A stretch of 64,000 nt of DNA from Bryopsis sp. KO-2023 (taxonomy: Eukaryota; Chlorophyta; Ulvophyceae; Bryopsidales; Bryopsidaceae). Below the pieces are notes generated by a model that saw nothing but the letters and a program-made list of their open reading frames with translations, was not told the DNA's origin and searched no databases. Within the stretch, counting starts at the first letter, position 1. Each line of letters starts with the position of its first letter. This document shows, piece by piece, positions 1 to 50,000 of this stretch. The DNA lies in NCBI GenBank assembly GCA_030272585.1, contig BSYQ01000003.1:5146001-5210000 (forward strand). The letters run 5' to 3'. The position numbers were made by a program, and so were the translations under genes.

Positions 1-3000
1 ACAGCCGACTTACTTGAGGAAACGCACCACCCTCCTTATTTTCCGTGAAGCTACTGGCTGTGTCCATTTTCTCATCGACCTCCTTTTCCTGAAAACATAA
101 AATAAACCAAAATCTTTGCCAGATTCACCAAATTTCCTCCAACCAAAAAACACCTTCCCTCGTATTTTCTATCTTTTCATATGGAAACATCCCAGTATAC
201 CCTAATGAGTGTGTACAAATCAAAAATTTTCACCTTTTGCATTCCCTCGATAGTTCCCATAGAAATCTGCCTGGTACCAGCTCCTTGACCTCCAGCCATC
301 TCCTTCTTGGTCTGTTCCAGCAACTCGTAGTCATCTTTGATTGTGTCCCTCTCTTGTTTCACCCTCTCAAGCTCCTCTTTAATATTAACTGCCCGATCCT
401 TGGCCACCCTTTGCTCTTCCTGTGCTTGATGCAACTCCCCCCTCAGCTTTTCCCTCTCTTCATTCCACTCTCTCGCACCATTCCTAAGTTTCTCAGCCTC
501 TTCTGCCGTTTTGCTCAGCTCCTGTTTGAGCTTTTGCATCTCAACATCCTTTTGTTTCCCCTCTTCGTTGACCACTTGCAGTTTATTGCCTAAGAAATTG
601 GCTTGCATCTTGTACTGCTGGGCCTCCGCCAGCTTTCGCTCCAATTCTGCCTTTTGCTTATTTAAAGTCCCCCTGTGCGATATCAATTTCTGATTTTCTT
701 CCCTCAAGCTATTGACTTCCTTCTCTATTTTGGTCTGGTTAGCTTCGTTTTCTTTGACGACCTGCGAAGCCCTTTCATACCCAACACCCAGTGCCTCTTT
801 CTCTTTCTTCTCCAAATCCCTTTCTTTTTGAAGGGTGTTTTTCTCCCCTTGGACAACAGCAAGCAGTCTAGCCTGCTCCGTGGCTTTTCTCAGCTCCGAA
901 TCCAGTCTCCCTAACTTTTGTTTCAAATCGTTTTTGTCGGCCTTGGTCTTCTCCAATTCTTGTTGTAATTGTTTCACATCCGAGCGAGAACTCTCCAGAT
1001 CCCCATCCGAGGAACGCTTGGAATCAGCAAGTCTGCTTTCCAAAAGTGCAATTTCAGCACGAGCTTTCTCAAGGTCCGCAGTCAAAATTTTCCCCTGCAA
1101 AACCCCCCAAAATGTGGTTTCAAAAATCAACAAAATGGTAAGCTCAGCATCAAAAAGTCAAAGCAGGCTTTTTTTCTTATTTACCTCTTCTTCCCTCTCC
1201 TCTACAGGATCCAAAGATCTCCTGCCATGAAAACCTGGCAGGCCCCGGGTTCGAACCTCGCCTCCCTCATCATTTTCGTTGTGCTCGGCAACCCTCCTGA
1301 TTTCTTTTTTTGCTTCGTCCAGCTGCGCCAGCAGCAACCGGTTAGAGTCCTTCTTCCCACGCACCTCTCCCTCGAGGTATTGATTGCCCACCAACGCCGC
1401 TTCCAGTTCAGCCTTCATTTTCTGATTGTCGAATTCCAGCACCCGCAGCTTGCCGATGTTCTCGATATTCCTCGATTTCAGCTTTTCGAATTCATCTTTC
1501 ATTTTTTTCACTTCTCGGTCTTCTATGGACCTGCACAATACTCCGACATTTCAAATCCACACAACCCTTTTCTCAAATCAAAAGGTGGTAGCCCAGCTGG
1601 ACCCACCTCACAAAAAATATATATTCCCTTTCAAATCCCCCCATTCCACAGAAGATATATTTTTTGTTTTCTATTTTTATTTTCTATTTTGTGTTAGAAG
1701 AAATTCCAAAACTTTCTAGACACTGGGTCAGCTAAACACTGCTCCCCCATTTCATTTTTTTTTTTTGCACACCCAAAACCCACCTCTCCGACACTCCATG
1801 CCACATCCTCGACATTTCTCTGGACATATCATCCCCAGTCAGTCTCTCAGCCTGGGTCTGGGTTCCTCTCGAAGCAACGACGATATCATGCACAGCCTCG
1901 CTCCCACCCCTCTCTTTCACAACCATCACGACCTCCACATACTCGTCTTCCGATGGCGCATTCATCGAATTCGGATATTGCTTGCAGGCACCAAATCTGG
2001 GTCTACCTGCTGGGGGACTCGCTCTGGATTGCAACGAGGAGCCTTGCCACAGCGACCCCATTTTACTCATCAATTCATTTGGATCCCCATGCTCCTCTTC
2101 TTCCCCTTCTTCATCCAAGTCTGTGGCAGCCTCGGGCTCAGGCGGCTTTCCAACCCATCTTTCAGGGTCATCCCCTCCATCCTCATCGCCACCACCTGCG
2201 GACCTGCTACCTGTGCCATTTCCATTTCCTGATGGACTGTAGCTACCTCCTGGTCTGCTGTCAGACCCACCTGCTTCATCTTGACCTCCCCCGGAACCAC
2301 TCCTGTTTCCTTCTTCGTCTTCATTATCCTCTGACCCCTTTCTTGCCTGAATAAACCAAATTGGATCAACAATCCAGAAAAGTGAAAAAATACTAGAAAA
2401 CAAAAAAAAAGCGTAGAGGTGCCAGAAACTTTCGAACAGCCAAAAAATGTTGCTGATTGACTCGCATTTCCAAAAAAAGTAAGACAAAAAGAGTTGCCCC
2501 CCCAAACCCTGGACAAAACACGTTTCAAATCAATCCTTGGTAAAACTTATGTATCTCATCACCGACCTTGGCTATCATTTTCATGATATCAGGAGGCAGC
2601 TCCCTCTGCTGAACGTGTTGAGGTACGAATTTCGCAGCCTCGTCGCTTCTCTGTGCCACCGCATCTACAGCCATCATCAACATCTTGTTTTCGTTCCTGA
2701 GCTCCACACATTTTCCTTTCGTGGATTCCAGGTCGCCTTTCAATTTCTCTTTGGCATCCCGCAGCCTTTCGATTTGGTCCTGCAGGGCTACATTTTGGGT
2801 GGCAAGGAAACCGCTGCCCGGTGACCCAGATTGAAACATCTTATCAAACTCATGGACTTTCTTGGTTGCTAGGTTGAGTTGGGAAGCGAGCTCCCTGTTC
2901 TCGGCATTTTTGTTGTGATTTGCTTCCTTCAGATCAGCCAGCTCCCTCAGCAAAGAGTCTTTCGCCACCTGATAAAAACACAATGCCAAATTTAATTTAA

Positions 3001-6000
3001 TTTCAAGGAAAAACATAATTTTCGAGCTAAACCAAACAACTTGAAAAAAAAAAAGATACTTTCACAATCGAACCCAGAAACTGAGTGCAAGCAGACAAAA
3101 TTCCCCTTCCTTTTCCCCCCACAACTTTTTACGAAAAACTGACACTCAATCTCTACATATTTTTATTTTTTTTACCGATTTTAAGTCCTCTTGAGCGGCC
3201 TCAATTTCGCTGTCCATATTATACACGGCATCCTCTAGCTCCTTGACACGCTCCTTAGCCTCACTCAGCTGCTCCTTCACAATCTGGTTGCTCTTCTCAG
3301 CATTCAAGAGCTCGCCCTTCAAAAATCCTGCCTCCATTTTCAAACCTCGGGCATCCTCCGTGGGGCCTTCGGTGGGGCTTGCAGATGTGGGCCCCCCCAT
3401 TTCCTTGTATATAATGATTGGATCTGGCTTTTGCAGCTTTTCCAGCCTGCCTTTTTCTTGACCCAATGAATATACCATACCCTTCAAATCCCTGTTCTCT
3501 TTCACCATTGCTTCCACCACTGAAACGACATCCGTCTCAGGAGCTCCATGCACATTTTCCCCCAGTTCTAAGACCTCCTCCTCGAACAACGGCTCAAGGC
3601 CAGCAGACGAACCCTCTTTCTGACTGCTGGCACCGCTGCTCCTTCCGCTGTTTCTGGAGGGACGGCCAATCGCAGCCTTGACTTTATCAAGAGTGCGTCT
3701 TTCATCGTCGAGCTGGTCGATGAGGCCATCGTTGGCAGCAGCCAAGTCTTTGGAGTCGGCTTCAGCCTCTAGCACCTAATATATAACAAACGGAATTTTG
3801 TCTTCAATCCACCCAAACCTAGATGAACCCACTCATCAAATTTTTATTGTTCGAGCATTATCATTCCGAAACATTTTTTTCGACAGAGATTTTTGCCCTT
3901 GCTTCTTGTTTTTTTTTTTTTTTTTGGGGGGGGGGGGGGTGAGGAGGGAGGGGGTTCCAATTCATTGCATACGTACCTTTCTGGCCAAATTTTCTGCACT
4001 GCTGTTCAAATAGCTGTATTCCTCCCACAGTGCCTCCAACTGGAACTCAACATCGACCTTCTCTTCCACAGCCAAATCCAATTGTTCAGTTACCACCTCA
4101 ACTTCCTTTTCCATAGCCAGAAGCTTCACAGCCAATCTGCAAATGCAACACAAGCGTCCCATTTTCATACCCCTAAAAACGCTGTGCTGCTCCTTTTTCA
4201 AAGAACACGTCATTTTCAAAATCCACAACCTCCATTGCTTCTTAAACTCTTTTTTAACTCTCCAGAACCCACTCTACCACTCATATGACTAATGTTTTTT
4301 TTTCATATTCCAGGCAAAACATCTGGAGAACGACGTTTCGTTCAGAGCACCGACCACCCACCTGTCATTCTCCCCCGTGATTCTCTCGATTTCTCTGCCA
4401 GCCTCCTCCATATCTTTTGCATGCTCCTCCCTCCCTTCTTCCAAAACCCCCACCTGCTCAGTCATCCCCATCAACTTCCTCTCCAGCTCATCCACAGCAT
4501 GGAACGCCTTGTCGTTCTCCTCTCTCAGCCTCCTCAAATCCCCTTGTCCAATTTTCCGATCCTTTTCCAATATCATCTTTTCCCCCTCCAGCTCCCTGAG
4601 CCTCTCTTCACTCTGCACCCTCCTTTTCACCGCCATATCCCTCTCTTTCCGCCTGTCTTCCACGTCTTGGTGGATCACCAGCACATCGCCCCTCAGGCTG
4701 CGAGAAGCCGTGATCACAAGGTCGTTCAGCTCCTCGCATTTCCCGCTCTTCTCATCCAACTCTTTTTTCATTTTTTCGGACGAGATCCCCAGGTCTTCCA
4801 GCCGTTTGACAGCAGCATTCTTTTCTCCCACCTGCATTCCAGAAAATACAGCAAAAATCTAGACGATCAGAGGCGAAAAAATCACCCCAGAAAGCTTTGC
4901 CATAGGGCATTTTCCTTCGCACAGAGAGATAGTCTACAAAGAAACCTAAAGTTTGGTTATGCACCCAATGCAGTGCGTGAACGAACAGGACACTTGCCTC
5001 TCTTGCCAAATTCTCTTCCAACCCTCGAATTTTGTCCTGCATGGTGTTGATCTCTTTTTTGTGTGTCCGCTTAGCACCGTCCAGCTCTCTGTCCAACTTC
5101 TTCACCAGTGCCCTGGCCTTGTCCCCATCTTGAATTGCCGTTGCTAATTGTGCACCCATATCCCATGCAGCTTGTTTCGCCCTACTGAACTCTGCACCGT
5201 CAAAATCATATCAATTAAAAGCTATTGGAAAATGATCAAATCAGAGCATCAAGTTTTTCCATCCAAAGCAAAGGAGGTCAAATCTAGACAGCCTGCATAC
5301 CTTCTTGGTCCTTCTTGATGCATTCTGTAACAGGAGCGAGCTTTTCCTGTATCCCTGCAATGCCCCGAACTCCACTGATGAAGCTGCTCTCTATTTCTGA
5401 TCGAACCTCACGGACATCCCTTCTGACGTCAGCCAAAGCCTCCCCAGGAACACCATCCCTCCTGACATCCCAAGCCTCGTTTCTTGGGCTCAATTCGGCT
5501 CCACACATAACTTCCTTCTCATACATCACCACATCTGAATTCTGCGTCATTTCCAGGCCCCTCAACATATCCTCTGTGCCGCGCAGCTTCTCCACCACAT
5601 CCTTTTTGACCCTGTCTGATGCTTTCAAATGTTTGACCAAAGCATCCAGGCTCTGCACAATGCTATCCACCTCACCCTTAATATCCTCAGAGGCTTTCAG
5701 TGAGGGTATTGGCCTGACTGGTGGTGCGGGCTCAGGGGTAACTGGACTTGCACTCGACCTGGGGGTGTCAGAGAAAGGGCCCCCCCTTGGAGTCACAACA
5801 GACAGTATGGGGGAGCCAGGATCGAACATTCCTTCCCCGTCTCCACCCTCATACTCCTCCTTCGCCGATAATGCCTTGAACGATTCTCTCAACCCAGCAA
5901 ACTGGTTCTCGGAAAAGCGTAACTTCGTATCCACATCCAGCTTCTCCTCCTTCAGCTTCTCCATGGCGATCTCAGCATCCCCCAGGCTGACTTGCAGCCC

Positions 6001-6788
6001 TGCACATTTATCGTTCATGTATCTGAGAGCCTCGGCACTTTCATCAGCTTCAGCTGTGGCATTTTTGTACAGCTCCTTATAATCCATTGCTTGTTGTATC
6101 GCGGCCTCCAGCTTTTCTGCCTTGAAAGCTGCTTCCTTGTTTGCACACTGCAGTTCGGACTCCACCAGCGTTACTCTCTCCAGAGCCTTAGCTTCCCTAT
6201 CCAGCACTGCAGCGTCTCCGCCCTTCAGTTTCTCCACCTCCATCGTTAACTGTGTCACTTTGTCTTTCAGAGCTTCCCTCTCTATTCTGCAGTTCCTGAG
6301 TCGAGACTTGAGTTCGACAACCTGTGACAGCCATCGACACAAAAAAACCTTGCTTCCCATACAAAAGGTCATGCAGCTGGTTAAAAAAACAACACTAACC
6401 CAGCGAAAAAAAAAAGCAGCACGTCGAAATTCGATCTTTTCCAGAAAATTGCTTCAAAATACAGCGAAGAAAGAATGTCACAGCAGTCTTGCTCTACTGG
6501 CTGGCTAAAGACTTGCAAGCAAGTAAAGAGAAAATTCAAAGTTTTTTTTTCTCTATCTAAAAATGATGGAAAAACCTTTTCTTGCAGATAGCTCGGGTCT
6601 CCAGGAACTCGAGCGGCATCAGATTTCCGCTTGGAGACCTGGGCCAATTTCTTCTTCAGTTCCAAAATCTGATCCGCCAACTCCACATTGAATTCTTTCC
6701 ATTTGTTGATCGAAACATCCGATGCCGGACTCGAAACGAGCCCCCCCTCCTCCATTCTTTCGCTTCTTGGGGTTCTCTGCAACCACAT
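1..6788 (-). CDS. Long coiled-coil protein (gene B), 3' end outside the window
   Basis: No family recognised. Predicted exons in gene order: 6788-6576, 6321-5301, 5191-4998, 4831-4362, 4136-3977, 3775-3176, 2968-2567, 2346-1784, 1530-1185, 1094-234 and 88-14. Phases agree at every junction and give 1,635 codons with no stop; the last donor (GTAAGT) lies at 13-8, so the protein continues off the window. Almost the whole product is heptad-like, rich in Glu, Lys, Leu and Gln, and interrupted by Ser/Pro/Gly-rich linkers (about 5700-5830, 3330-3660) and an acidic Gly/Ser-rich segment (2100-2346). No transmembrane segment or catalytic motif was seen, so a structural or scaffold role is likely but inferred. 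The start chosen is the Met at 6788, before RTPRSER; a TTGCAG just inside it could instead be an acceptor from an upstream exon. Intron 3 appears to use a GC donor (position 4997). The junction after 2567 uses a weak GTCGGT donor; reading on instead would end the protein at 2525. Confidence 0.72.
3909..3939. repeat. T17-G14 homopolymer block inside an intron of gene B
   Basis: On the plus strand 17 T residues (3909-3925) are followed directly by 14 G residues (3926-3939). The block lies in the gene B intron 3776-3976. It is simple sequence; the lengths may contain sequencing error. Confidence 0.9.
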
Positions 6789-20044: not shown

Positions 20045-23000
20045 ATGAGTGAGGATGGCACTTTTTCCTCAAGCGGTGGGAGTTCGGAGGATGAATCGGA
20101 GGAGTTGGATTTGGGATTTGAACCCGTCATGTCGAACGGGGGGTTTTATCCACTGACCCCTCAGCAACCGGCATCTAACCACAAGCAACCCATCAACAAC
20201 GAAAACATGATCGGAACAGCCAATACTACAGCTGTGGGGCGAAGCAGGTTGCAGGGGGACGTGAGCTTGAACAGCGGAAACGCAAACGGAGGGAGTGCTG
20301 GAGCTTACGAGGTCAGGATTTTTTTTTTCAGTTTTTTTTTTTTTTTAATTTCTTGGTTTTCAAATTGAAACCATGCTGTCCTGGATTTCAGCAATTTCCA
20401 AGAGAAAGAGTGATTACTAACCCACCATGAGCACTGATTCGCTGGGGTTATCGAGAAGTGGGTTTTATTTTGGGGGGTGAACATTTCTGTGTGAAAATCA
20501 GTTGGGTGGCCAGAGTTCAGCACCGGGTGGTCAAGGCGATGGTTTGTCAATGCCTGTGGGTGATCCCCAGTTTGTCCCGGTATTGCCATCTTCATCCAGA
20601 AAGGAGGGGTCATTTTTGGCTTCCAGAAACGCACCAACTGCTGAGGGAAAGGGGAGGGATCAAGCGAGTCTCACTGATGGGGTCGCTAGGAATGAACCGA
20701 TGGCTGGTTTGCCAGCTGGTGCAAATCAGATGGATGATTCGGTGAGAACCACCACTTAATTTTTTATTTTTTTTGGATAGGTTTCGTGGGTTTGAAAAAT
20801 TTGGGGGGGGGGAGGGAAACGGGTTCGAAGGACTCAATGATATGAAGGGTGAGGTCCTGGATTGTGGAGTAAAAATTGGTAGTGGTGGCTGGCAGGGGTT
20901 CGTTGTGGCTCCGCAGCAGCAGGTTGGTGTTGAAGGTTCGGCCAATCAAGAACACCTGGGAAACCCTCGAGGAGTGGATGTCGTCGCTAGCAGTGAAGGT
21001 ATCTTTCCACCACGACATGACGTATGCCACTTTTTTTTACTTCGAAAGTGTAAACATACACAGATAGAGAAAAAAAATAAGGGAGTTTCTTCCTGTCTTC
21101 ACTGAACTTTCGATTGCTTAGATGCCATTGCGGTGGATGGAGGCGATGAGGTTGACCGCACTGGAAATGACCGCGAGCTGGAAACTGTCTTGGTGGGAAT
21201 CAACCAAGGCCAGCCTCGCGGCAATCCAGCCGCCAACTGTGAAACCGGCCCCACTGCCAATGAAATGCATGGAGAGCTCCAAGAACAAGCAGGCGAGGAA
21301 GTCCCTGAGAGAATACCGATTGGGGTTTCTGGGCGGACGTCCGGCAGTGGCCTCGATGCCATGCCTGGAAGGGTGGATTTGAATTGCGATACCGATCCAT
21401 GGACGGAGGAGATCGGGGTGGCAGAAAATGTATTGCGGGGTGGGGAAGGCGGAGTCAAAGATGTACAAATGGGGGAGCAGAGGGTTCATGGTGAAGGAAT
21501 TGGAGTCTTGCAGGTGTGGATAGAAGTTCCCCCCCCCCCCCCAAAAGAAAAGAAAGAAAGAAAGGAAGAAAGGAAGAAAGGAAGAAAGGAAGAAAGAAAG
21601 GAAGAAAGGAGCCCCCTTTCATTTTTGATCTGAATAAAAGGGCTGGCTGCTTGAATACGACCCCAGCAAGAATACAACAGAAACAGAAGTATTTTCTTTC
21701 TGTCGTTTGCTAAAGTGTTTTGTTTCTTTGTTTCGACAATGGCTTCCTTAGTTGTAGTTGATTTCTGGGTCATAGGGTGATGACACTGAAGTGCAGGCAG
21801 CACCTGTGGGAGGTGCCGTTGAAGCCCAGTCTGGCGCCCATCCAGGGTTTGAGGTGCGTATGTCTGACAGCACAACGGAGATAGCTCTTTCCTGGAAAAG
21901 TCAAAGTTGTCTGCCTCAGGAAGCCCATCCACAGCGAGACTCGGTCATCTATGTTTCCGACAAGCAAAAATTTGTCCGAGAAACCTAAGCAGAAAAGAGT
22001 ATAATTCTGCATGCTTCCTTTGTTGGGTTGCGTGATATCCTATGCGATGCTGTTGCAGGAAGAAGACTTGCTGGACTTTGAAGAAGATGATTTGCTGGAT
22101 GCTGACATCAGCGTGGGCACAACAGCCGCCAGTCGAGATCCCCGCAACCCACCCGAGCCCAAAAAGCCAAGACTTTCGTATCAAGCACCAGCCCCCAGTG
22201 GTGAAGCAGCTCCGAAAGTGACCCCCGTTTCAATGGAAGAGGTACGGTGTTCCCGGTGAAGTCCATTTTTTAGAAATATAATAGTTGAAAATACTAGTAA
22301 CTAAAATAGTTATATATTTGCTTTCGGTCGGGCATTAGCGAGGGGAAAACAAGAACCTGAAATTCCCCCGAGTTATGGTTTGTGAAAGTTATTTGGGCAT
22401 CTGATGGAAAGCACCTTCTATATTGACACGAATCAACGATCGATGGGTTGATTATGGCAGGTCCCAAAGGTGGTGGTGGCAGCTCCATGCGTGAAAGCCG
22501 ATATTGGGCAAGTGAAACAGGGGCAAGTCCCTGATGAAAATCCTGCCAAGAACGTTGGTGCACCATCCAAAGCCCCGATCGCCCCTGCTGAGGGTGGCCA
22601 AAAAAGAAAGAGGGAACCCATTCCAACCCCAGCAAGCAAAGGTGGTTACTGGTTTCCGTCAGTACCATATGACTGACATATGGGCCCTCTCTCAAGTTTT
22701 TTGAGTTTCCGTGTGGTTTGTTGTAGATATCGATGGATTCAGCATGGATAGCTTCGATGAGAACTTCAACATTTCTGTTGGGGATTCCGGGAAAGGCCGG
22801 CAAGTCGCAAAGGAGGGAAATTTCGATAAAGAAAAGTGGAGGAAACTGGTAAGTTGCAGACCCTCGACATGGATCTGCTTGAAACAGCTATCAGAAGCAA
22901 CATGTTTTTATGTACATGAGGAGCTTCTGAAGAACAAAACTGCTGGTTTTGCCTGGGGTCGATGATTTCGTGTTTTTTGTGCCAGAAAAGATAAAAGGGT

Positions 23001-26000
23001 GGGCATGTCTGACAAATCAAAAAAAATTGAACGGATGAATTGAATCGCACCGTGTGAATGAGATGGTGGGAAAAGTTGGCGGTTCAGGTTTCGTCTGACG
23101 GACAGCATCAGTACAGTGCATCTTCCAAGGAAAAGGAATGCCGAGAGCGCCCCAATCGAAAGGATGAACGCATCGTCACATTCAAGACGTCCAAAGTCGA
23201 AGTGAGTTTTTCCTTCTCTTCTGTTTCGGCCGTGTGCTTTTCCAATAAATGCATGAAGAGTTTCTGGACCCCTGTTTTCCCCCTTATCCTCCATTCTTGT
23301 GGATTTTTTTTTTGAAAAATGCAGGTATTCGAAATGGACACTCAATTGAACCTGAACATAAGAATCGAAGGGGAGGATCCGGAAAGCTATGTTGCTCAAA
23401 AAAGCGTTATTCTGGCGGATCCTCGCTACATCGATGATACAGACTATGCGAAAGGACTGAAAAGGGCTGAAGGATATCTGGACCACAATGGAAAGCAGCA
23501 GCTGATGTCGCACTCCACGTAAGTTTTTTGCCTCGAAACCAAAAAAAATTCCCTTCCATCATCTGCGACCCAATTTGGACTTGCATGTTGATTTTTCAAA
23601 ACCTCGTTTGTCCATCCCTTTCATCGCTTTTTCAACTCCCAAGGGGGATAAGAATAAAAATAGAATTCTTGTTCAAAATACGAGATAAAAATCATGGGGT
23701 AGTCCTCCTCGACTCGCCTCTGTTTTGGCGGTGATTTTGGTCAAGTTCTTTTTTTTCTCCTTAAGTGAAACATAGTTATGCAAATTCTGATGGGGTTTAT
23801 CCCTGCTGCTGTGTTGTTTTGTTGTTTTTTCCCGCAGGAGCATCCGCCACTCAGTGATTTCCGAATTGGGCGAAATAAACATAGAATCGATCCCGCACGT
23901 TCAGAAACACGTGATGGGCAGACTGAAGGAATGCAGGAAAAGCACCCAAGGGAGAACCATCCGCGACGAATGCAAGGAAATCAAAGACGACAAATTTTTC
24001 GATCTCGGATGCAAAAGGCTGCACACGTTCGTTTCCACGCCCATAAAGGAAAGGCTGTTGAAGAGCTCCGTCCCGAAACGGTGAGCAACCATTATTTGCA
24101 TCTACAAAAAAACGCCTGTTTCAAAACGAAACGAGGATGGGTTGCGGGGTGCATGGATCTTGAGAAAACTCAGAAATTTTCCTTTTCCTTTTCCTTTTTT
24201 TTTTCCGGCCTTTTTGTTCGACTGGGCTGAGATATTGGCACAGGATATGGTTCACGTTGTAGTTTCCAAAACTCCTTCAGTGATTTTTATTTCCTCCTTC
24301 TCCGCTTGTGATCAATGTCATATTTTTTTGCTTTTTTTTCCAGACGTGAGCTCCTGATCTCTTTCGGCATCGTACCATTTCCAATCATCGAACCTTCCCC
24401 TGGGGACTATTTCCAGAAACTCCTGGATGAGGATGCATGGTGCGTTGGCCGTCAGAAGCCAGCACTGGGTTTGCCCCGGTCAGATGCCACCAAACCAATC
24501 AAAAATTCAACACCAGCAAGGGAGGTTGTGAGGAAAGACAAGGCGCCCGATGGCAGGCACCGGGAGCCTGAGAAAGGGGGGGGTGCCAGGGATAGGCCGA
24601 TCATTACTGATTCGAGAAGAAACGATAACAGGAGGAGAGGAGGCAGGGATGTGAAACGGGACGACCGACCTCGAGATAACAGAAGGTTTGAGGGATTTAA
24701 ACTAAGTGCAGAACGATAAATACTGAGCGGATGCTCAAGAGGATAAGCTCCTTGATCACCAACAGGACCTCTAACTAGTGTGTTGGATTCTGCGTGCTTT
24801 TCTGGGAGCTTTTGGATGGATACAGATGATATCGTGTGTGTGTGTGTTTCGTTGGTTTGCTGTTTTTTTTATAGTTTTTTGGAAAGTGTTGCAGGGAAGC
24901 AGAGGAATGGAAAAACAGGCGAGACTTGCATCACTCCAGCAGAAGAGGGCCCAATCACAGTGACAGAGGACGGCGAAGGGATAATTCACCACCACGCCAT
25001 CAGAGTGAGGATAGGAAATGATTTTTTTTTTTCCGTTGCTCTGCCGTTTTTCATGCCTGGAAAAATTCCTCTCGCTTTTTTCATGGAGTGTTTCGACCAA
25101 GCATTCGTGTCTGTTTCATTTTGCCCCTGTTTTGATGTCAATATGGATATATGTTGGTAATATGCTGGCCATTTTTTTCTTCTTCTTTGAGTTTTCAGTG
25201 TTATATACCAGAAAACCTTCCAGTGTAATTTTCCAGGGCTGAAAACCTTCCTTATTGGTTTGATCCAGGGCGCGATCGTCACAGCTCTCCACCACGGCCT
25301 CCTCATCGTCACAGAAGTCCAATGAGACGCCGTGACTTGTCCCCCCATGGATCCCATCATCCCCACCACCACCCCAACCAGCCTCCACCACCGCCGAGAA
25401 GGAGGTCAGTTCTGTGACATGTGGATACCAAGTGTTCGTCTGCATTCAGTGTCAGGGAGGCCCATCCACAAGATATATATATATATATATATGAAACATA
25501 GTTCGATTCAAGGCTAATACCCATTGGACAGAGTGGAAGTGCTGGGCCATGGTGCCGATCGTAAACCAGTTGGAGCGTTTCACTGCACTTTGCTGTCATT
25601 TTGTTTCTACTTGGATGATGTAGCGTTGAAGTTGCACAAAAATGGCGAGCCAAATCGAGTGTTTGTTCGGTTCCTCCCAGGATGGATGAAATACTTCCCC
25701 ATGGCGGTCATGACAGCATCGATAGATCAGGGCAAAGAGGAGCCTCTGGCTGGGTGACCAGCGGCATGGGCCCCTTGGCTGCAAGGAAGCAGCCCTCGCC
25801 CTCACCGATACAAGCACCCCTCCCAGTGGCAGCACCCTTCCAAATGGATTTAAACCCAGTCGTTGCAGGTTTGTGTATACATCACCCCACCCCTCTCTGA
25901 AAGTAACCCTCACTGGTTGCTGCTGATTTCCCATCCCACAGCCCTGCTTTCAGTCTCGACATAGCCGTCGAATTCGCACGTTTTTTTTATCAATGTGTTT

Positions 26001-28068
26001 TGTCCATGTCCCGAGCTCGTATTCAAACTGGTTCCAATTTTTTTTCGTTTTTTCATTTTTCCCCCAGGTTTATCCCAGCAACGGCTTCAGAGTGGTCTGG
26101 TTGGGACGGGTCTGTCCTTGAACGATCAGCAAGCCATCCTGTTGGCTCAACAGCAGCAGCAACAACAATTGCTGAATGCACAGGGTGTCCAACCAGCCAA
26201 TCTCGGATTGGTCAATCGAGGAAATGTGATGGATGTAGCTGCCCAGCATGCAGGTCTTCCACTGAATGGCATCAATCATACTGGCATTGCCCAGCAGCAA
26301 CAGCAGCAGCAACAGCAGCAGCAGCAGCATCAAGGATTGAGAGGTCAAGGACAGCTGGTTGCAGGATTCAATCTGATGGCTCTTCCCCAGGCCCAGCACC
26401 ATCAACACAGGTTGGGAAGATTTCATGCTCAATCATCAATCCACCCTTTCAAAGGGGGTCGATCATTTCCGTATGGCTGGTTTTGATATCCATGAGAAGG
26501 GCAGGAATTGGGTGGTTTGACATTCCATTAATCTTCAAGTGTAATTGTGCCTTGTGCAGGATTCGTCTGAAGCTTTCCAGTGGAGGTTGCCTTTGTCCAG
26601 ACCCGGCCCGGAAAGACGACCCCAATCCGTACACGAGACTCAATGAAGATGCGTTCTATATCGGCGAAAACACTCTGGCAGTGGCGGATGGTTTGGGAGG
26701 TTCGTTTGTTTCTGGAAAAGATATGTTTATTTGTTTCGTATTCCTTGGTCGATCTCTAAGCAGAAATGCATGCAGGCATGACAATGACAACATTGAGATC
26801 GACACCAACTGGACCCCTTCTCTAGACTTTGCATGTTGCCTGTTTCGTTTGGATTTTAGAACTGTTTGTGTTGGGATGGAGTGGTGGAGTGCCTTGTGGG
26901 GTGGTTGGCTGTCAAACTGTCAGTCCAGTAGCCAGGCCAGAAAGCACCCGCTAGGATCGTGCAAGTGTTGCATCCATCCATGGATGCATCCACCTTTGGG
27001 CCCAAATTTACCTGGTTTACCTCCGTCAACGCCACGAAATTGATACCTAGGTGGTATCAATCAAGAAAGGCTTCCTGGTTTTCCTTTAGACTCACTGTCA
27101 GACTGGAAATTGGAACCAGTCTCTTGAACCGAGCAGATCCAGTGAGAGCAGGCGACCAGCACTTGTGATTTTGTAGCCCCAACCCCGATATCTAGCTGTG
27201 GGTCAACTTTTAGCTTCTTGAAATCCATCGATGCTGGTTTCGTCGATGCGAGTGGAAAGAATGAGCCAATCATTCATCCCCAGGAACCACTGTGCATACG
27301 TACAGGGGCCCTTGGTGTTTGTGAACCTACGTGGCCTCATATCGATACATATATCACGTTTATTGTTCAGGAACTTTGCTGCATGGGGTGAGCTCCGCTG
27401 AGTACGCCAGAGCCCTGGCAGAAACCGCTGCAAAAGCCATGGACAAACTAATCAAAGATTCCAATGGGCATCCATGGACTCCGAAAGTGGCCATCGAATA
27501 CGCATACACGCAGATCGATTCTCAGGGGGCCAGCACTTTGTGCCTGCTTGCGTTCGATGCCAACCAATCGATCTTGCACGTTGGCAAGGTTGGTGATGGG
27601 GGCTACGTGGTCCTCCGACCATCCGGGGTGGAAGACATGGAGGTGGTGTCACCTTGGCTGCCCTTTAAGAATCCCCAGGAGCACCCCATGGGCATCAAGA
27701 GTACCAACTACCTGACCAGCATGGAGCTCCGGCAGCGAATCAGCGGTTACCACCCCCAGCATGCGATAGAATCGCAGGTGCTCCTTCAAGAAGGGGACAT
27801 CATCATCGCAGCGACGGATGGCTTTTTCGACGTTATATATTTGCATGGGGAGAAAGGGAAACCGCTGAGGAGGCAGATACGGAGGGTGGGCTTGGCACCT
27901 GTGATGCTCGCCCAACAACTAACAGATTTAGCTAGGCAATTTGCAGTCACCAGAACCACCGATTGTCCCATTTGCGAGGAAGGCCGCAGGGCGAATGATG
28001 AACGAATAGCCTCCGGAGTCCAACCAGATGATATCGCAGTTGTTGCTGCACATGTTGTGCGTGCATGA
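20045..28068 (+). CDS. Multidomain protein: acidic region, unknown core, Arg-rich and poly-Q regions, C-terminal PP2C phosphatase (1,384 aa)
   Basis: Eighteen predicted exons: 20045-20311, 20502-20741, 20815-20998, 21122-21513, 21776-21853, 22059-22241, 22461-22641, 22727-22848, 23088-23201, 23325-23518, 23838-24080, 24344-24685, 24895-25004, 25269-25404, 25681-25868, 26068-26410, 26560-26699 and 27371-28068. Phases agree at all 17 junctions and total 1,385 codons. Residues 1-450 are acidic and Gly-rich, with a DFEEDDLLDADIS patch. About 509-800 is a core I do not recognise. About 800-930 is rich in Arg, Asp, His and Pro, like RNA-processing factors. Two Gln tracts lie near 1018 and 1067. Residues about 1107-1384 form a PTC7-like PP2C domain with NEDAFYIG, VADGLGG, GDGGYV, ATDGFFD and PDDIAVV, so the metal-binding Asp residues are present. 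Metal-dependent Ser/Thr phosphatase activity is predicted. Weakest points are the exon 3 acceptor, next to a G run, and the 672-bp last intron. Confidence 0.78.
21544..21612. repeat. Polypurine (AAAG/GGAA-type) microsatellite in an intron
   Basis: A nearly pure run of GAAA and GGAA units on the plus strand, immediately preceded by a C run (21530-21542). It lies in the intron 21514-21775 of the phosphatase fusion gene. Such polypurine tracts can form triplex DNA; no function is implied. Confidence 0.9.
26148..26327 (+). repeat. Two CAG/CAA tracts encoding poly-glutamine
   Basis: Within exon 16 of the fusion gene, CAG/CAA codons encode seven Gln at 26148-26168 and twelve Gln at 26292-26327. 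Both CAG and CAA are used, so each tract is interrupted at the DNA level. The tracts sit in a Gln/Gly/Ala/Leu-rich linker before the phosphatase domain. Confidence 0.92.
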
Positions 28069-28439: not shown

Positions 28440-31400
28440 TCAGGTGTTTTCCAGATAGCTTGGATTTGCTGTTTTCCAGTCAGACATCTCGCTTCGTAGG
28501 AGCATGTTTGTGTACAGATGCCGATGTTGCAGTCTCTGTCTCGTCATCGGTGAAGTGGCAGTCTTGGTCATCCATCTTTGAATTGCAATGCGTTCATATG
28601 TGAATCCATCGGAGGCCACGACTGGGTCCTCCATGACATCCTGAAGAAGATTGTTCAAAAAATTATTTGAGTGTGCCCACTCGAAAGCTGATGGTTTCAT
28701 AGTTCATTCAACTGGTCCTGCAAGTGTATGGAAGGTGAAAGCATGCACCTGGGTGATTGGACAGATGAATCGGTCGGGGGCATCATTGCTTTGGTTGCTG
28801 TTGTTAGATAAGGGGGGCGGGGGAGGGTTGGTTGAAATCTGTGCCACCCGCAAGATCTCCGTCATGGCTGGAATGACCTCGGATTCAAGATTTGGTCGCT
28901 CTTCCCTCTGCATTGAGCAGCATCTCAATGCAAGTCGGGCAAAAGTCTCGATGTCCTGAAATCACAGTTGTGCATCATCTTATTGCAATATTTCTGGTGC
29001 AGAATCTTGTCTGTCTCTCAAGCAATTTGACTGCTGGTGAAGATTTAGTGTATTTGATTTGACCCCCAGTCATACCGACAATGACTGGCCCTTGATAGTC
29101 TCATCGATCGTTTCTCCCAGGGTGTCCTTTTCCAAGGCATCAAGAACAACCTTTCGAATCCCCACCGGCTCATCCATCCAGATCAAGAGCTGCAAGAATG
29201 TAATTCCCAAAGCATACACATCCGTGAAAGACCCCACAATTCCTTCTGTGAGGTAGGCAGGGTCCATATATGCATAAGTCCCGATCGGAGCTGTGGTTCT
29301 GTAGCAACATTTTTTGTTAAAATTGTCGATTTCAAATCTGCCTAACAAAAACTCAACATGATCCAGAGTTTTTCACCCAGCTCATGACATACCTCACTGT
29401 TGATTGTGTGGACAATTCTGGCACCAGCTTTGAAAGCCCCACATCTCCCAGCTTGGCCGACAAGGAATGATCCAGGAGGATATTGGCAGGCTTGATATCT
29501 CTATGCAGAATTGGGTGGGGTCGGGCTTTGTGAAGGAAAAGCAACGCTGAGCTGACATCTGTGGCTATCCTCAATCTTTCCACCCACTTCAGAGGGCGTG
29601 ACTTGATCCTGATGGCATCAGAAAATGCCTTCAGATGGTGGGACACAACTGTAGGATAGTGGTTGTTTCTATTCATTCATAATGTGGTGCTTCCTCTAGC
29701 AGGCTGGGTTTCTTTGATCTGTTCGAAGAGGCCTCGAGGGACGGGAGGATTCGATTGAACTTCACCGCTTGCTGGCCAAGTGGTCTTCCAAGGTGCCGTT
29801 GTCCATCATCTCGTAGACAAGGCAGCCCCGATCTCGACACACGCCAAGCAGTTGAACAATGTGGGGATGGCGTATGCGTCCGAGCACTGCCACCTCTTGG
29901 TAGAACTGTTCCATTCCCTGCAAGCTTGCGGCGTCGATCATCTTGATCGCAACAGGAGTGAAATTCAAGTGTCCTCGATAGACGGAACCATAGCCACCCG
30001 CCCCACACTTGTTGTCCTCGCTAAAATTATTCGTGGCCGCCTCCAGATCTTCGTAAGTGTATTCCTGGAAGGGGTGCCCTGAACGTGAGTTTCTTGAAAT
30101 GGGTGAGCGCCTTGAGATTGAAAAACCGTTCCACACGCTGCAACCTGGCATTGAAGCAAGAGTTCATTCTTGGGCAATAACTCCGACGGGGTCTCAACGT
30201 CCCTCGACCCAACAGAGGTATTGACACTGGGGCCTGGCGGTTCTGCGTCCGAGGGACCCAATTTCGATCTTGCCCTTGTGGGTGGCGAGGACTGCGGTGC
30301 TGGCCTCTGTGGATTCTTATTGGGCAGAGGAGTAGTGAAAGACGATACTCTCAGACAGCCGCCATCGAGATCCTCTTGAACGTCTTCGTCCTTTTGGGCG
30401 GGTCGCCCTTTTCTGAAATTGAACACTTTTGATGCAAGAGATGCACTTCGTGGGGCTTTCTGGCACAAGCAACAATTAGGGTGTTATCTTGTGTGTTTTT
30501 TGTGCTGCTCTCTGTGTCACGCTCTGAAAGGATATGGAAGTTTTTTTCCCTCCTCTTTAATTTAATTTTTTTTGTTTGGTTGCAAATTTGCATACTTTTG
30601 TTGTGTTATGGTCATCGACGGTCGATTCCGCTCTCGTCTTGAGGAATGCCTCCTTTAACAGCTCCCTGATTTCGCTTTTCTGGGCGAGTTCTTTTGGTCT
30701 CCAACCCGCCTATCCTCGAAAGCAAAAAGCAGTTGGTTTTCGATAAACGCCATCGACACAGTGGACAATGCATCTATTTCAGCATCTTTCTTGTTGACCT
30801 CAGGTACCAGTGATCGTGCGTCCATGCTCGCACCCGCCGCCAAAAGCATTCTGACTACATGGGTGTGGCCCTTCCTGGTAGCGTCGTGAAGAGGAGTGAA
30901 ACCATCCTGCACAGAGAGATCGCAGCGTCATTTGCGTAATATCGGACCCGTGACTTGAAACCAACTGAAAAGGCAGCTGGATCACACCGCACTTGGTCCT
31001 GCGCAGCCAAGTCAGGCTTAGCTTCAAGAAGCAGCTCTGTGAGTTCCACGTTTCCAGCATAGGATGCCATGTGAAGGGGTGTATATTGTCCCTACAAGCG
31101 GAAACCACATTTGAAAATTTGAAAATCCTATGTCGACCACAGGGTAGTGGAAGAGGGTGGATGTGTTTTAAACAAACATTTTTGAAATTGCACCATCTAC
31201 AGGGTTTGGTCACTCCACCTGCATTTTTGAATTAACATGTGCTCCTTGATCCAACAGGATTCTGGCGACATCGATGTGCCCTGAGGCGGCGGCGTAGTGC
31301 AATGGCGTTTGGCCGTACTGTGTGAAGAACGTTCAAGACGTGAGTTGAGAGAGCGGAATTTTTCTTCGCAGGGCTTAAGCCTGACAACCTCGTTTCCAGG

Positions 31401-42610: not shown

Positions 42611-45168
42611 CTAAACATCGCAGAGCTCCATCATGACTGGAAACACCTGCTCGAAATTTGGGTGGCTCTTGGCTTTGGTGGGACAGGCCTCCAAAGCTGT
42701 TTTAACCCCAGTCACTGCTTCCTCAGCGGAGTGCGTATCCAACCACAGAGAGTACTGAGAAGGGGACAACCCAGTTCTCGAATGTGGAGCCACAAGCCCT
42801 GGCGGAGCCCTGCTGTACAAATGGTACAGAGCAACAATTCGTGGCATCTCCTTCAGAAGGGGAGCCCCGGCGATGTCCGAAATTTCCATTGCCAACAGAG
42901 CTCGGAAGGCTCGCAGAGAGCGGAATGGCATCCCCAGCTTTTCGACAGGGAACAGGTATTTCCTGACGGCCGATTGAACAGCCAGGACATCTTTGGACAG
43001 CTGCAGCCTCCCTTTCCTGCCCAAGGGCCGAATCATGGAAGCGTGTCGAACGAAATACACCATCACTCGACATGCCATGCGCTGAACCAAGGAAATGGTG
43101 AACGAGGGGACCGTGGGGTTGGGCACCGGAGTGAACTTCATCAAGAACTCGCTCCGGAAGATTTGGAGCTTGGCTTCCAGGTCAGACACATACTTGGATG
43201 GCAGAGCCTGAGTGGATTCTCCGGAGTCCTCTCCCCAATTGTTGGAGGTCGCATGGATTTCCAAGATGGCCTGCTCCACCGTTTCTACCACAGCCTTGAA
43301 TATGGGGGCGATCGTTTCGATGGCGGCACCCTTGAGAAACTCCATCGGGTGCACCAAAGCTTCGGCTGCTGTCAGAGGGAGGTTTGGCACGGCCGAAACC
43401 AGGGATCTGTGCACCTCTTGGAGGTGCGAGCAGAGCGCAATATTCCGAGACTGTGCTGAGGTGCATCCACCCCCCATGGTTCGAACCTCCGACCCTGCTG
43501 ATGCCATCATATCCACTCGCTCCGCCAACAACAGCACAGCTTTTCCCACGGTTGAAGCTACCAGGGCTGCCACATGCAGGCTGCCCCCCACTGCTTTCAG
43601 TTCCTCGTGCATGGTAGCAATACACTGTTGAACGTCTGCAGCCAAGGGCAGATTCCTGGTGCCCCCAGGGAATGCCACAGACACCGCCTCGGTCATCCGA
43701 GACAGAGAACCCGTCAAGTACGCATTCTGAATCGGCTGACATGCAGCCATCAAGGAATCCAGGTGCTCCTTGCCCAACTCCAGAGGAGCTCCCTTCGACT
43801 GACATTGCTTGGCAAGTCTCTCGAACATGGCTTCCAAGATGCCAGCCAATGTTGGAAAGCCTTGCGTCAATGCCTCTCGGACGGTTGCTGGTCTGGATGG
43901 ATGCACCACCTCGCCAAACACGCTTCCGAAGGCTTTAGTCATGCTCCTCCAATACCGAGCCAAAATCGTGTCTCCGGAATCGCCCATGACCACATCGTGA
44001 AACTGGATATGCGTGATAGGATCTCGTTTTTTCCACACCACCTGCTCCAGATGCCAAATTCCCACCGCAGACTTTTCTATATGATTAGCCAGTTCTCGAA
44101 CTCTGGACCAAAACGCCTCTTGCCATCCTCCAGCCCCTGTACTGGAGGCACCCGTCAAGGCTTGCCTCAAATCCAGTGCCTGCTTGGCTTTGTGTTTCAG
44201 ATCGGAGACTTCTTTTGCTACGAGGGACTCTATGGCTGAGGGGAGCTCCTCGAGGTTGAAATACACTTGGAGAGCATTGCCCACATCGGCTTGGTTGAGC
44301 GAATTCAGCCCCTGTCGCAACATCTCCTCGGCCTGAAATCGGACACGGGAAGCAGTGCTCCTTAGAAACTCAGAGTCCGATTCCAAAATTTCGATCCCAC
44401 TTATATCCACATCACGCCCTAACAACACCACAAATGTAACCCAAATTTAGCTAGAAGATCAGAACTGAGCTGCGGACTATCTGTTAAGGGTTTCCAGCAA
44501 AAGAGTAGGAGAGCAGCACCTTGCAGAAACAAATGGAGCCATGTATACACCCATCCTACCCCAGCAAAACGAAAACAAGGCTTGATGAAGGGAGAAAGCT
44601 GTTCTGAAACCCTAGTTCAGGATCCATCAAACGACGCACCAGTGGCTTCTATTTCCGTGAGAAGCTTCGCGGCTTGCGCTGTGTCGGGAGTTGGTGCCGA
44701 ACCCCCCTTTTGACCCTCTTCGATTTGGGTTCGGAGCCGTTGAGTGAGCTTCAGTCTGTGGTTCACATGGCGCAGCAAGTCCACAGCATCCCGCAAGTTC
44801 TTGAGCTGACGAGTTTTCGTCCTTATGTGGTCACACGGTTCAAGCAGAGCCACACGCAATTGCCCGACAGTGCCTTGCATCCCGTGAACAGACGTCTCCA
44901 CACCGCGCGTCTTGACTTCTGTATCGGAAAGGTTCCGAACCACCCGCATGAGATCCGCTTGTTTCCTCAACACTTCGGATCGAATCCCAGTCTCCAAGTT
45001 CTGAATTCCATCGCGAAGCTCCTGCGTGGTCGACTGCGCTGACGCCTGTGCACCCGATAAGGCCCGGCTGGTGAATTCCGTCGGGTCGAAATCATCTCGC
45101 TGAAAGGGCTCCAGCCGAGCGTCGGACAGCACAATACCATCCGTGGCAGACGTCGCCCCCACAACCAT
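42611..45168 (-). CDS. COG5: Conserved oligomeric Golgi complex subunit 5, 778 aa (start uncertain)
   Basis: Two coding exons: 45168-44640 (the acceptor at 45177 allows nine more in-frame bases) and 44418-42611. The N-terminal exon has the COG5 hallmark LEPFQRDDFDPTEF, followed by a long helical coiled region (about residues 40-175). The second exon carries DVDISGIEILES, then GLNSLNQADVGNALQVYFNLEELPSAIE and KKRDPITHIQFHD, matching plant COG5 order closely. COG5 belongs to lobe B of the COG tether, which supports retrograde transport within the Golgi. The 1.8-kb second exon is unusually long for this window. The start is set at the first Met in the exon, because upstream candidate exons (45344-45300 and 45721-45495) cannot all be joined in one frame; they may be 5' UTR or a longer N-terminus. 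Confidence 0.9.
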
Positions 45169-47081: not shown

Positions 47082-50000
47082 TCACTTGACATCCACGATT
47101 TTAATGACCGAAGAATTTCCAATCCTGTGGAGTGCGACTACCGAATCCTTGCTCTTGCAGTAGTTCAAGGTTTTTGCATGGCCGATGGCAGCCGAAAGAA
47201 TTTCATCGATGGTGTCAGTATCAGTGGCTCTCGCAGATCCCTCAGACAACAACGGAATCAATCCTCGGGTCACCAAACAGTGCCTGGCTGGGTATTCTCC
47301 GCTGCATTCCCATGTCAGACTGTCGGTCGTCAAAACGGGCACAGCGACGGTCAAAACCGGGATGGAGGGTCGATACTTGGCGACCAATCTGGCGGTGGAA
47401 CCTCCCCTGGTCAGCACGACGATGAGAGAGGCTCGGACCTTATGGGCGGTTCTCACAGCGGACGATGCCAAGGATTCCAGGGGTGTCATGGGGACGGGGG
47501 TTTGCTTGATGAGGTTCTTGAACAAGGTGTAGTAATCCAGGGAGGCTTCCGCTTCTCGGCAGATCTTGGTCATCATCTGGAGGAAAAACACACAACACCG
47601 AAACGTCAGAAAATCGTGCACTTCCGTCATTGTACCAAATAATAAAAAATTATTGTTAAAATGGATGATAACCTGGATTGATGGAAACTGGCAGTTCTCA
47701 GAATCCCTCGCACCTTGACGGCTTCGACAGGGTATTTCCCGGCAGCAGTCTCTCCAGAAAGCATGACGCAATCGGTTCCGTCCAACACAGCGTTCGCCAC
47801 GTCGGTGGCTTCTGCCCTGGTTGGTCGAGGGTTCTTGCACATGGACTCCAGCATCTGGGTGGCGGTGATCACGGGTTTTCCCATGTAATTGCATTTGTGA
47901 ATCATCATTTTTTGGGCAAGGAAAATCTTTTCGGTGGGGATTTCCATGCCCATGTCTCCACGAGCAACCATGACGCAATCGGCCTGCTGGACGATGTCGT
48001 CGAAATTGGAGATACCCTCCTGGTTCTCTACTTTGGCAATGATTTTGATGTTCTTTCCGCCCTCCCCGAGAACCTGAGGGAAAAATGGATTGGAAAAAGC
48101 TTGTCAGTGCAGAATCTACAGGGGTGAAATCATCACGCCGAAAGGGACACAAAAAATTTACTAAAATTACTAATATTTTTCCAATAATAAAATAATTCAA
48201 TCCCTGGTTTCACCGATATATTACCCATTTTAATTTTTTAATTTTCACTCCTTTTTGTCAATTATTCTTCATTTTTAACATTTTATAGTCTTGGGGAAAG
48301 AGGGTCTTGCTATTAGTAATAAATTCCACTTCAGACAAACTTTTTGTTTGTTTGCGTACTTTTTTGATGATACCGATGTCAGACCCCTTTCGGACGAAAG
48401 AAGCAGCGATGAAATCGATCTCATTTGGCACTCCCCACTTCAACAAATCCTCTTCGTCCTTCTCAGTCAGAGTGGGAAGATCCACAACAACACCGGGCAA
48501 ATTCACGTTCTTCCTCTCTCTGCAAAAGGAAAAAAAAATTGAATTCTTTCATACACATATCGAATGATGAGAACGAATTCAAAAAGAACACACATATATA
48601 CACATACTTCCATCATGTGATTTTTCCCGAGTCCCTTGATCTCTTCTCCCCCCTCTCCCCCCTCCAAACAAAAAAAAAGCAAAAACTAAAAACTAAAACT
48701 AACATGCTGTCAAGGGGAATTCCACATCCCCTTCTACTGCTTTCATACTATAAATTCATTGTGTTCTTCTAATGAACATGAAAAAATACAAAAAAAAGAA
48801 AAACAAAGGCTCTGTTTTATTTTTTCTTGTAGTACATAGTGGAAAGTCAATATCTCCTCCTGTCAAATGGAAGGGATGAAAAAAAAGCAAAAAATAGCAA
48901 GCTTACCCCAGCACAACAGTGTTTTTGCACAATGCTCTCACAGTTCCCTTCTCAGGGTTTGTCGATACAACTTCCTGCGAAACAATTTTAGCGGATGGAA
49001 ATTAATGGCAAAAGAGATTAATTCAGCACAATCTATCTCGAAGATTTTTGCTTGATCAGCAAACGTCCATCTGAATTACATTCATAATTACATTCGCTTT
49101 CGTGAAAAAATAAGGTTGGCTGATGCTTGGAACATTGTGTTATTCCGTGGGATTTCCTGATGAAGGTTATTGTTGATGTGAAACCTCAAAAAACAGAATA
49201 TTGCTGGCATTCATAATCAAACCACAGTAGAGCATGGAAAGTTTTCAGGTGGATCAGACAATGTATTTTTGATTTATACATTTCCAAATGGTTCCAAAAA
49301 CACTTTTTTGGGGGGCTCCTTCCCCCCCCCACATCTTTTTGGCCTTTTTTTTCCAATGCTAATACTGACAAGCTCCATCTTGGAATGAGAAAATAACATA
49401 TTTCCAATAACATCTCTCATGTTAAAATTTGTCTTCTTACCAGAACGACACTTCCATCCGCACACAAGATTTCTGAACCTCTCTTGACATCGCGAGGCAA
49501 ATGCTTGTAGCTGCAAAGAGAATTTCCCAAAAAAACAAAAACTCAAGAATCTTGTGGAAAGGAGGAAAAAAAGGAGAAAATTAGAGATGCTGATGCTTTG
49601 CTGTTGTTGTTTGAAGCATCAGGTTAAAAAAATAATAATAAAAAATAGGGGAATGAAACCCATCCAAAATGGTTGCCAGAACTCACCTCATAGCAATCAA
49701 TTCAGAGTTTCCTTTGATTGTGTAATCCGTGGTGATGGTGATTTCCTGAAAAAATATCAAAACAAATTCAAAAGAAAAGTCACGGAACATAAGAAAGCCA
49801 GATGTTGGGCGAATGCTTCGAAACATGGCGTTCAAGGTTCCCCTGGAAAAAAAAATGCTTTCGCCTTTCACTTTTTTTGTTTTTGTAAAGAAATGCGGGG
49901 GGGATTCTCACCGTTCCTGAGATCAGCTTGACTGGCTCTTCGTTCTCGAGAAAACCGGTTCTGATTTCAGGACCCTGTACATATGCATGCAAATCAAATT

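Follow-up and report, generated by a model that had tools for sequence, protein, structure and literature searches.

Positions 20045..28068 of a 64,000-nucleotide stretch of the Bryopsis sp. KO-2023 genome (assembly GCA_030272585.1, contig BSYQ01000003.1, positions 5,146,001 to 5,210,000; hereafter, the window) encode a PP2C phosphatase domain of the PTC7/PP2C7 type and, upstream of it, a long acidic and Arg-rich front part. The gene or genes, the PP2C7 phosphatase, and the arginine/serine (RS)-like tract are real. There is an even chance that they form one gene of 17-18 exons, whose product comprises an acidic N-terminus, a middle region, an RS-, arginine/aspartate (RD)- and His-rich tract, a poly-Q linker, and the C-terminal PP2C7 domain (1,357 aa, or 1,277 aa without exon 2). 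The choice between one protein and two is, in our own judgement from the DNA alone, close to even.

The gene model was rebuilt from the raw sequence and consists of 18 exons separated by 17 GT-AG introns, with a single open frame of 1,357 aa on the + strand. The 17 in-frame junctions given in the earlier note were thus recovered, while its length of 1,384 residues was 27 too many. The exons and associated features are as follows:

20045..20311, + strand: exon 1; the start ATG 20045 is the first Met past the upstream in-frame stop
20502..20741, + strand: exon 2 (80 codons), considered doubtful on account of its weak acceptor
20896-20998, 21122-21513, 21776-21853, 22059-22241, 22461-22641, + strand: exons 3-7; acidic low-complexity N-terminus
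22727-22848, 23088-23201, 23325-23518, 23838-24080, 24344-24685, + strand: exons 8-12; middle region, Arg/Asp-rich at its end
24895-25004, 25269-25404, + strand: exons 13-14; rich in Arg, Ser, Asp, His, and Pro and RS-like, though only when read in the splice-phase frame
25415..25417, + strand: alternative stop if exon 14 is read through; a separate front gene (gene A) would then have 905 aa, including exon 2
25473..25492, no strand: (AT)10 run in presumed intron 14; possible TATA-like element or microsatellite
25681..25868, + strand: exon 15; contains ATG 25682, which encodes residue 903 if the two parts are fused
26068..26410, + strand: exon 16; poly-Q linker with runs of 7 and 12 Q
26560..26699, + strand: exon 17; beginning of the PP2C domain (NEDAF, VADGLGG), not preceded by a Met in this exon
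27371..28068, + strand: exon 18; remaining PP2C domain (GDGG, ATDGFFD, DDI), stop codon 28066-28068

Coding evidence was obtained with a small self-trained hidden Markov gene finder. The training set comprised 263,703 bases, namely the 64-kb window and 20 further regions of this assembly. The trained model, which has no untranslated regions or promoters, yielded 26 genes and misses some: none was called on the - strand of 18-29 kb despite the U-box exon at 28440-28703, whose gene is cut off there. Scores termed left-out were calculated with a codon model trained without the coding sequence of the 20045..28068 gene. On the + strand of 18-29 kb, the parse with the left-out coding model (splice matrices still including this gene) scored 77 nats above the empty one; the maximum gain in 40 dinucleotide shuffles was 0.152 nats, and therefore most of the exons are real. 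The left-out in-frame score was positive for 15 of the 18 exons, and the phase of the gene model scored best in a different set of 15, since exon 3 had a positive score but not the best phase, and exon 15 had the best phase but a negative score. The full-model parse contained 15 exons, lacking exons 2, 13, and 14. The acceptor of exon 2 scored only 0.3, which, together with its omission by the gene finder, weighs against a count of 18 exons; skipping it preserves the frame. The sequence TGTAA, a candidate poly(A) signal, was absent after 28068 and was itself dropped, as it lies within 1 kb of 11 of the 19 predicted gene ends at no steady position. The Rfam scan of the window gave no match at the gathering score, and no match to the gene region was found in the plasmid collection. 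An AAAG microsatellite (21544-21608) lies within intron 4.

The last 279 residues (1079-1357) match the PDB sequence 6ae9, annotated as plant 'Probable protein phosphatase 2C 1', with an E-value of 6.4e-9 (next chain 0.021). A profile of the domain and three paralogs, the latter making up three of its four rows, matched 6ae9 at 2.8e-46 (next 4.9e-05). This rice PP2C is taken here to be a PP2C7 member. The domain is of the PTC7/PP2C7 type, as the earlier note had assigned it; by comparison with PDB sequences alone, PP2C7 is the PP2C class it resembles most. Searches of Pfam and NCBIfam with the whole protein or its pieces gave nothing above the curated cut-offs, and the weak PP2C-like signals were SpoIIE (0.011, below the cut-off) and Stp1 PP2C (0.003). 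No confirmed match was found in viral contigs searched with the phosphatase. The single-sequence AlphaFold model of the exon 18 translation alone (mean predicted local distance difference test score, pLDDT, 39.4) was too poor for a fold search.

All the metal-binding Asp motifs noticed earlier are retained. The motif list was taken from Kerk et al. (2015, PMC4524716), and its assignment to residues was made in this analysis. The Asp residues of motifs 1, 2, 8, and 11 correspond to D1109 (NEDAF), D1122 (ADGLGG), D1275 (TDGFFD), and D1345/D1346 (DDI). The motif 5 Asp, D1201 (GDGG), and the additional motif 8 Asp of the third metal, D1279 (TDGFFD), are invariant in an alignment of four rows, namely the window domain and three paralogs, one row being short and without motifs 1 and 2. 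The PHP-K and GGW stretches of two paralogs are altered in the window domain, where they read CPDP...NEDAF and GGTLLHGVSSAEYA (GGT). A 469-aa paralog likewise lacks GGW, and the change is therefore interpreted as divergence and not as exclusion from PP2C7; in the excerpts of PMC4524716 used, PHP-K and GGW are not among the defining features.

A search of the assembly (28 contigs, 91,088,769 bases in total) with one of the paralogs as query gave 15 matching stretches, which lie on seven contigs and were taken as seven PP2C7-like loci, the window's own included. The pair of stretches on contig 5 matches only weakly (E about 0.005). For three of the six other loci, complete predictions from start to stop were obtained (315, 469, and 427 aa); the prediction on contig 10 has 204 aa with its N-terminus cut short, and the gene finder returned no parse for the short locus on contig 14. 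The 427-aa paralog (contig 6, about 78 kb) is predicted with a strongly acidic N-terminus.

Because no Met precedes the domain within exon 17, the phosphatase must start in exon 16 or earlier unless intron 16 is coding. In the latter case, translation would begin at ATG 26492, from which the frame is open into exon 17; however, the codon score is -2.7 over 68 nt of that stretch, and the exon 17 acceptor scores 8.6, a value reached once per 10,988 bases. Such a start is extremely improbable. The earlier note named a transcript start at 25.9-26.6 kb as evidence that would separate the phosphatase from the upstream exons; the best alternative ATG, 25682, falls outside this interval, and the upstream frame meets its stop at 25415-25417.

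The question of one gene or two is concentrated at the bridge between the front part and the phosphatase. Two tandem genes, with a probability somewhat short of even, would consist of gene A, which would run from 20045 to its stop codon 25415-25417 and encode an acidic, RS-rich protein of nuclear type, and of a second gene from ATG 25682 to 28068 encoding a 455-aa PP2C7 that begins with a poly-Q leader. The fused model would then be a read-through of neighbours. The principal grounds for two genes are the position of ATG 25682, the unique (AT)10 run, and the ordinary length of the second product. Exon 15 starts with G-ATG, so that this ATG is its first full codon. The (AT)10 run upstream of it, which may represent a TATA-like element or else a microsatellite within the intron, is the sole (AT)n/(TA)n run of at least 16 bp in the 263,703 bases. 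The 455 aa of a separate phosphatase fall within the 315-469 aa of the three complete PP2C7 predictions from the same genome. Also weighing against a single gene are the shift of composition at the exon 14/15 border and the negative left-out codon scores of exons 13 (-5.3), 14 (-11.1), and 15 (-2.0), which are exactly the three exons of the 24.7-26.1 kb bridge; exon 12 reached just +0.2. The left-out single-gene parse moreover jumps from exon 11 to exon 16 via a 2-bp artefact exon, dropping exons 12-15. Excerpts of Kerk et al. (PMC4524716) caution that 'empty' PP2C7 N-termini may stem from incorrect gene models.

In favour of a single gene are a strong, phase-matched pair of splice sites and the narrow space that would separate two genes. 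The exon 14 donor and the exon 15 acceptor both score 6.1 (equally good donors occur once per 3,425 bases and acceptors once per 995 bases), and their phases match. With splice matrices trained without this gene, the values were 6.0 and 5.8, respectively, and 8.6 for the exon 17 acceptor. If there were two genes, this pair would be a coincidence, or further untranslated exons would be needed, and the 264 bp between the alternative stop and ATG 25682 would have to hold a 3' end, a promoter, and a 5' leader. The minimum gap between predicted genes on the same strand was 1,496 bp (n=7, all in the window; these gaps are few and inflated by missed genes). Among the grids tried, the unified parse exceeded the best split by 6.3 nats in the full model and by 3.4-3.6 nats in the left-out models, and the split at 25682 was 6.6 nats under the unified parse in the full model (best left-out split 3.4 under). 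A lead of this size is roughly the penalty for adding one gene start, which again detracts from the single gene. The gene finder backs both halves and hardly the bridge. The fusion of a phosphatase with a scaffold proposed in the earlier note is consequently plausible from the open frame, whereas continuity through 24.7-26.1 kb was not confirmed, given the negative exons 13-15, and within the one-gene reading it is inferred.

The composition of exons 13 and 14 bears on a third reading, in which gene A stops at 24719 by reading through exon 12, exons 13-14 are noncoding, and the phosphatase starts at 25347, 25682, or later. This was the top-scoring split in the gene finder (-6.3 nats in the full model, -3.4 in the left-out one), but exons 13-14 have good splice sites, and in the splice-phase frame they carry on the richness in Arg, Asp, Ser, His, and Pro, which is rare by chance. 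In that frame both exons are free of stops, and R/D/E/S/H/P account for 26 of 36 residues in exon 13 and 39 of 44 in exon 14; of the other four frames, three contain stops and the fourth is of ordinary composition. For comparison, windows were slid at every offset in six frames over the 263,703 bases, with the 20045..28068 stretch excluded. Exon 13 was equalled or exceeded in Arg and R/D/E/S/H/P richness by 34 of 185,787 windows (six clusters in three stretches) and exon 14 by none of 152,444. An end of gene A at 24719 is therefore very unlikely, and exons 12-14 are taken as one coding stretch despite the codon score, since the RS-like composition continues in the phase-set frame and is rare elsewhere. 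By itself, this composition binds exons 12-14 together and gives no tie to exon 15.

The layout described in the earlier note was recovered in the rebuilt model. Residues 1-420 have a net charge of -45, and exons 12-14 form the region which had been described as Arg/Asp/His-rich and is rich in Arg, Asp, Ser, His, and Pro. Residues 781-900 are basic and, by the charge-hydropathy measure, disordered. The poly-Q linker of exon 16 is likewise present, with 7 Q at residue 992 and 12 Q at residue 1040. Motifs resembling nuclear localization signals (NLS) were found at residues 395 (KKPR) and 469 (KRKR). For the middle region (residues 482-749), no relative was detected in Pfam, NCBIfam, PDB sequences, viral contigs, prokaryote genomes, or the rest of its own genome; these searches covered no eukaryote collection, and novelty of the region does not follow from them. 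The five matches in its own genome at E up to 10 were all its own exons. The best PDB match of the middle region (E 0.67) and the Pfam/NCBIfam matches to TFIIA, LptC, IS91, HPTransfase, and MshA were taken as noise. No SAP domain was present among Pfam matches at E up to 1 (the filters drop most matches above about 0.1), and no RNA-binding domain (RRM, PWI, or similar) was matched by Pfam in the window protein. The AlphaFold model of the exon 11 translation (mean pLDDT 48.4) was too poor for a fold search.

PP2C phosphatases have no regulatory subunits, and their specificity comes from attached parts, according to excerpts of PMC4524716. In a single window protein, the front part would most probably carry the enzyme into the nucleus, as its NLS-like basic motifs and composition suggest, and hold it on the transcription machinery or on RNA-protein particles; the PP2C7 domain would then dephosphorylate Ser/Thr of nearby proteins via bound Mg/Mn ions. 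A PP2C7 fused to a large nuclear, ribonucleoprotein-like acidic/RS/poly-Q scaffold with an undescribed middle domain, acting as a phosphatase that directs itself to the RNA-processing or transcription machinery, is a tentative and rather unlikely picture. If true, it would extend the few nucleic-acid-linked PP2C7s (SAP, PIN_Utp23) to siphonous green algae. If there are two genes, the locus serves as a caution that an in-frame model with 17 junctions can merge neighbours.

Several other genes were observed in the window. The convergent neighbour at 28440-29676 (- strand) combines a protein kinase domain with a U-box placed C-terminal to it, resembling plant U-box kinases. A COG5 C-terminal domain lies at 42614-44446 (- strand), a pyruvate kinase C-terminal domain at 47085-48209 (- strand), and an ECM29 proteasome-adapter HEAT domain at 59888-60481 (+ strand), inside a predicted 23-exon gene (51663-62248). 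The predicted 11-exon gene at 125-6755 (- strand; about 1,614 codons) has open frames that appear coiled-coil-like by eye, and the one frame tested gave no Pfam match. In the whole assembly, the chlorophyll a/b-binding family gave 107 matching stretches, counted exon-wise and not as genes, some in equal-scoring pairs or triplets. An Lhcb fragment encoded in this genome is identical at 120 of 121 residues to Bry-Lhcb1 (with 'Bry' for Bryopsis) of a siphonaxanthin light-harvesting complex (8hlv) and matches an Lhcb1 chain of 9k7v to the same extent, in line with the genus Bryopsis.

The window protein shares with the PP2C7/PTC7 family (human PPTC7, yeast Ptc7, Arabidopsis At2g30170, At4g33500, and At4g16580, and rice 6ae9) the C-terminal PP2C domain and the Asp residues of motifs 1, 2, 5, 8 (with the Asp four positions on), and 11, and differs in the length of the sequence that precedes the domain, up to 1,078 residues. 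The literature search for such an architecture gave only Kerk et al. (PMC4524716), which is no proof that it is unpublished. Excerpts of that article describe PP2C7s as most prominent in plants and green algae, with the domain typically C-terminal and often preceded by 'empty' N-terminal sequence; in 228 of 251 no accessory domain was recognised, and a primary organellar prediction was given for 97 of 182 photosynthetic sequences. The earlier view of PTC7-type proteins as normally short and often organelle-targeted is borne out only in part. The same excerpts report SAP domains on PP2C7s of three Mamiellophycean algae and Bigelowiella, and PIN_Utp23 in fungi. Because PP2C7 domains at the C-terminus of proteins with long uncharacterised N-termini have been described there, as have green-algal SAP-PP2C7s, the window protein, if single, would be a longer variant of a known plan rather than an architecture of a new type. 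Like the SAP-PP2C7s of Ostreococcus, Bathycoccus, and Bigelowiella in these excerpts (PMC4524716), it would join a green-algal PP2C7 to a putative nucleic-acid-binding part; unlike them, it has no SAP match in Pfam, and its acidic/RS/poly-Q front is not assigned to a family. The acidic N-terminus and RS/RD-rich tract recall SR/RS-domain and FIP1-type RNA-processing proteins, from which the window protein differs in lacking a Pfam domain of an RNA-processing family. Animal PPM1G (PP2C-gamma), of a different PP2C class from PP2C7, offers a functional analogy only. According to excerpts of PMC4830430, it is a PP2C with an acidic region and a basic one that contacts RNA, and it targets the nuclear transcription machinery; the acidic region of PPM1G is an intervening one, and a Lys-rich region is located within its C-terminal phosphatase portion, whereas the acidic part of the window protein is N-terminal.

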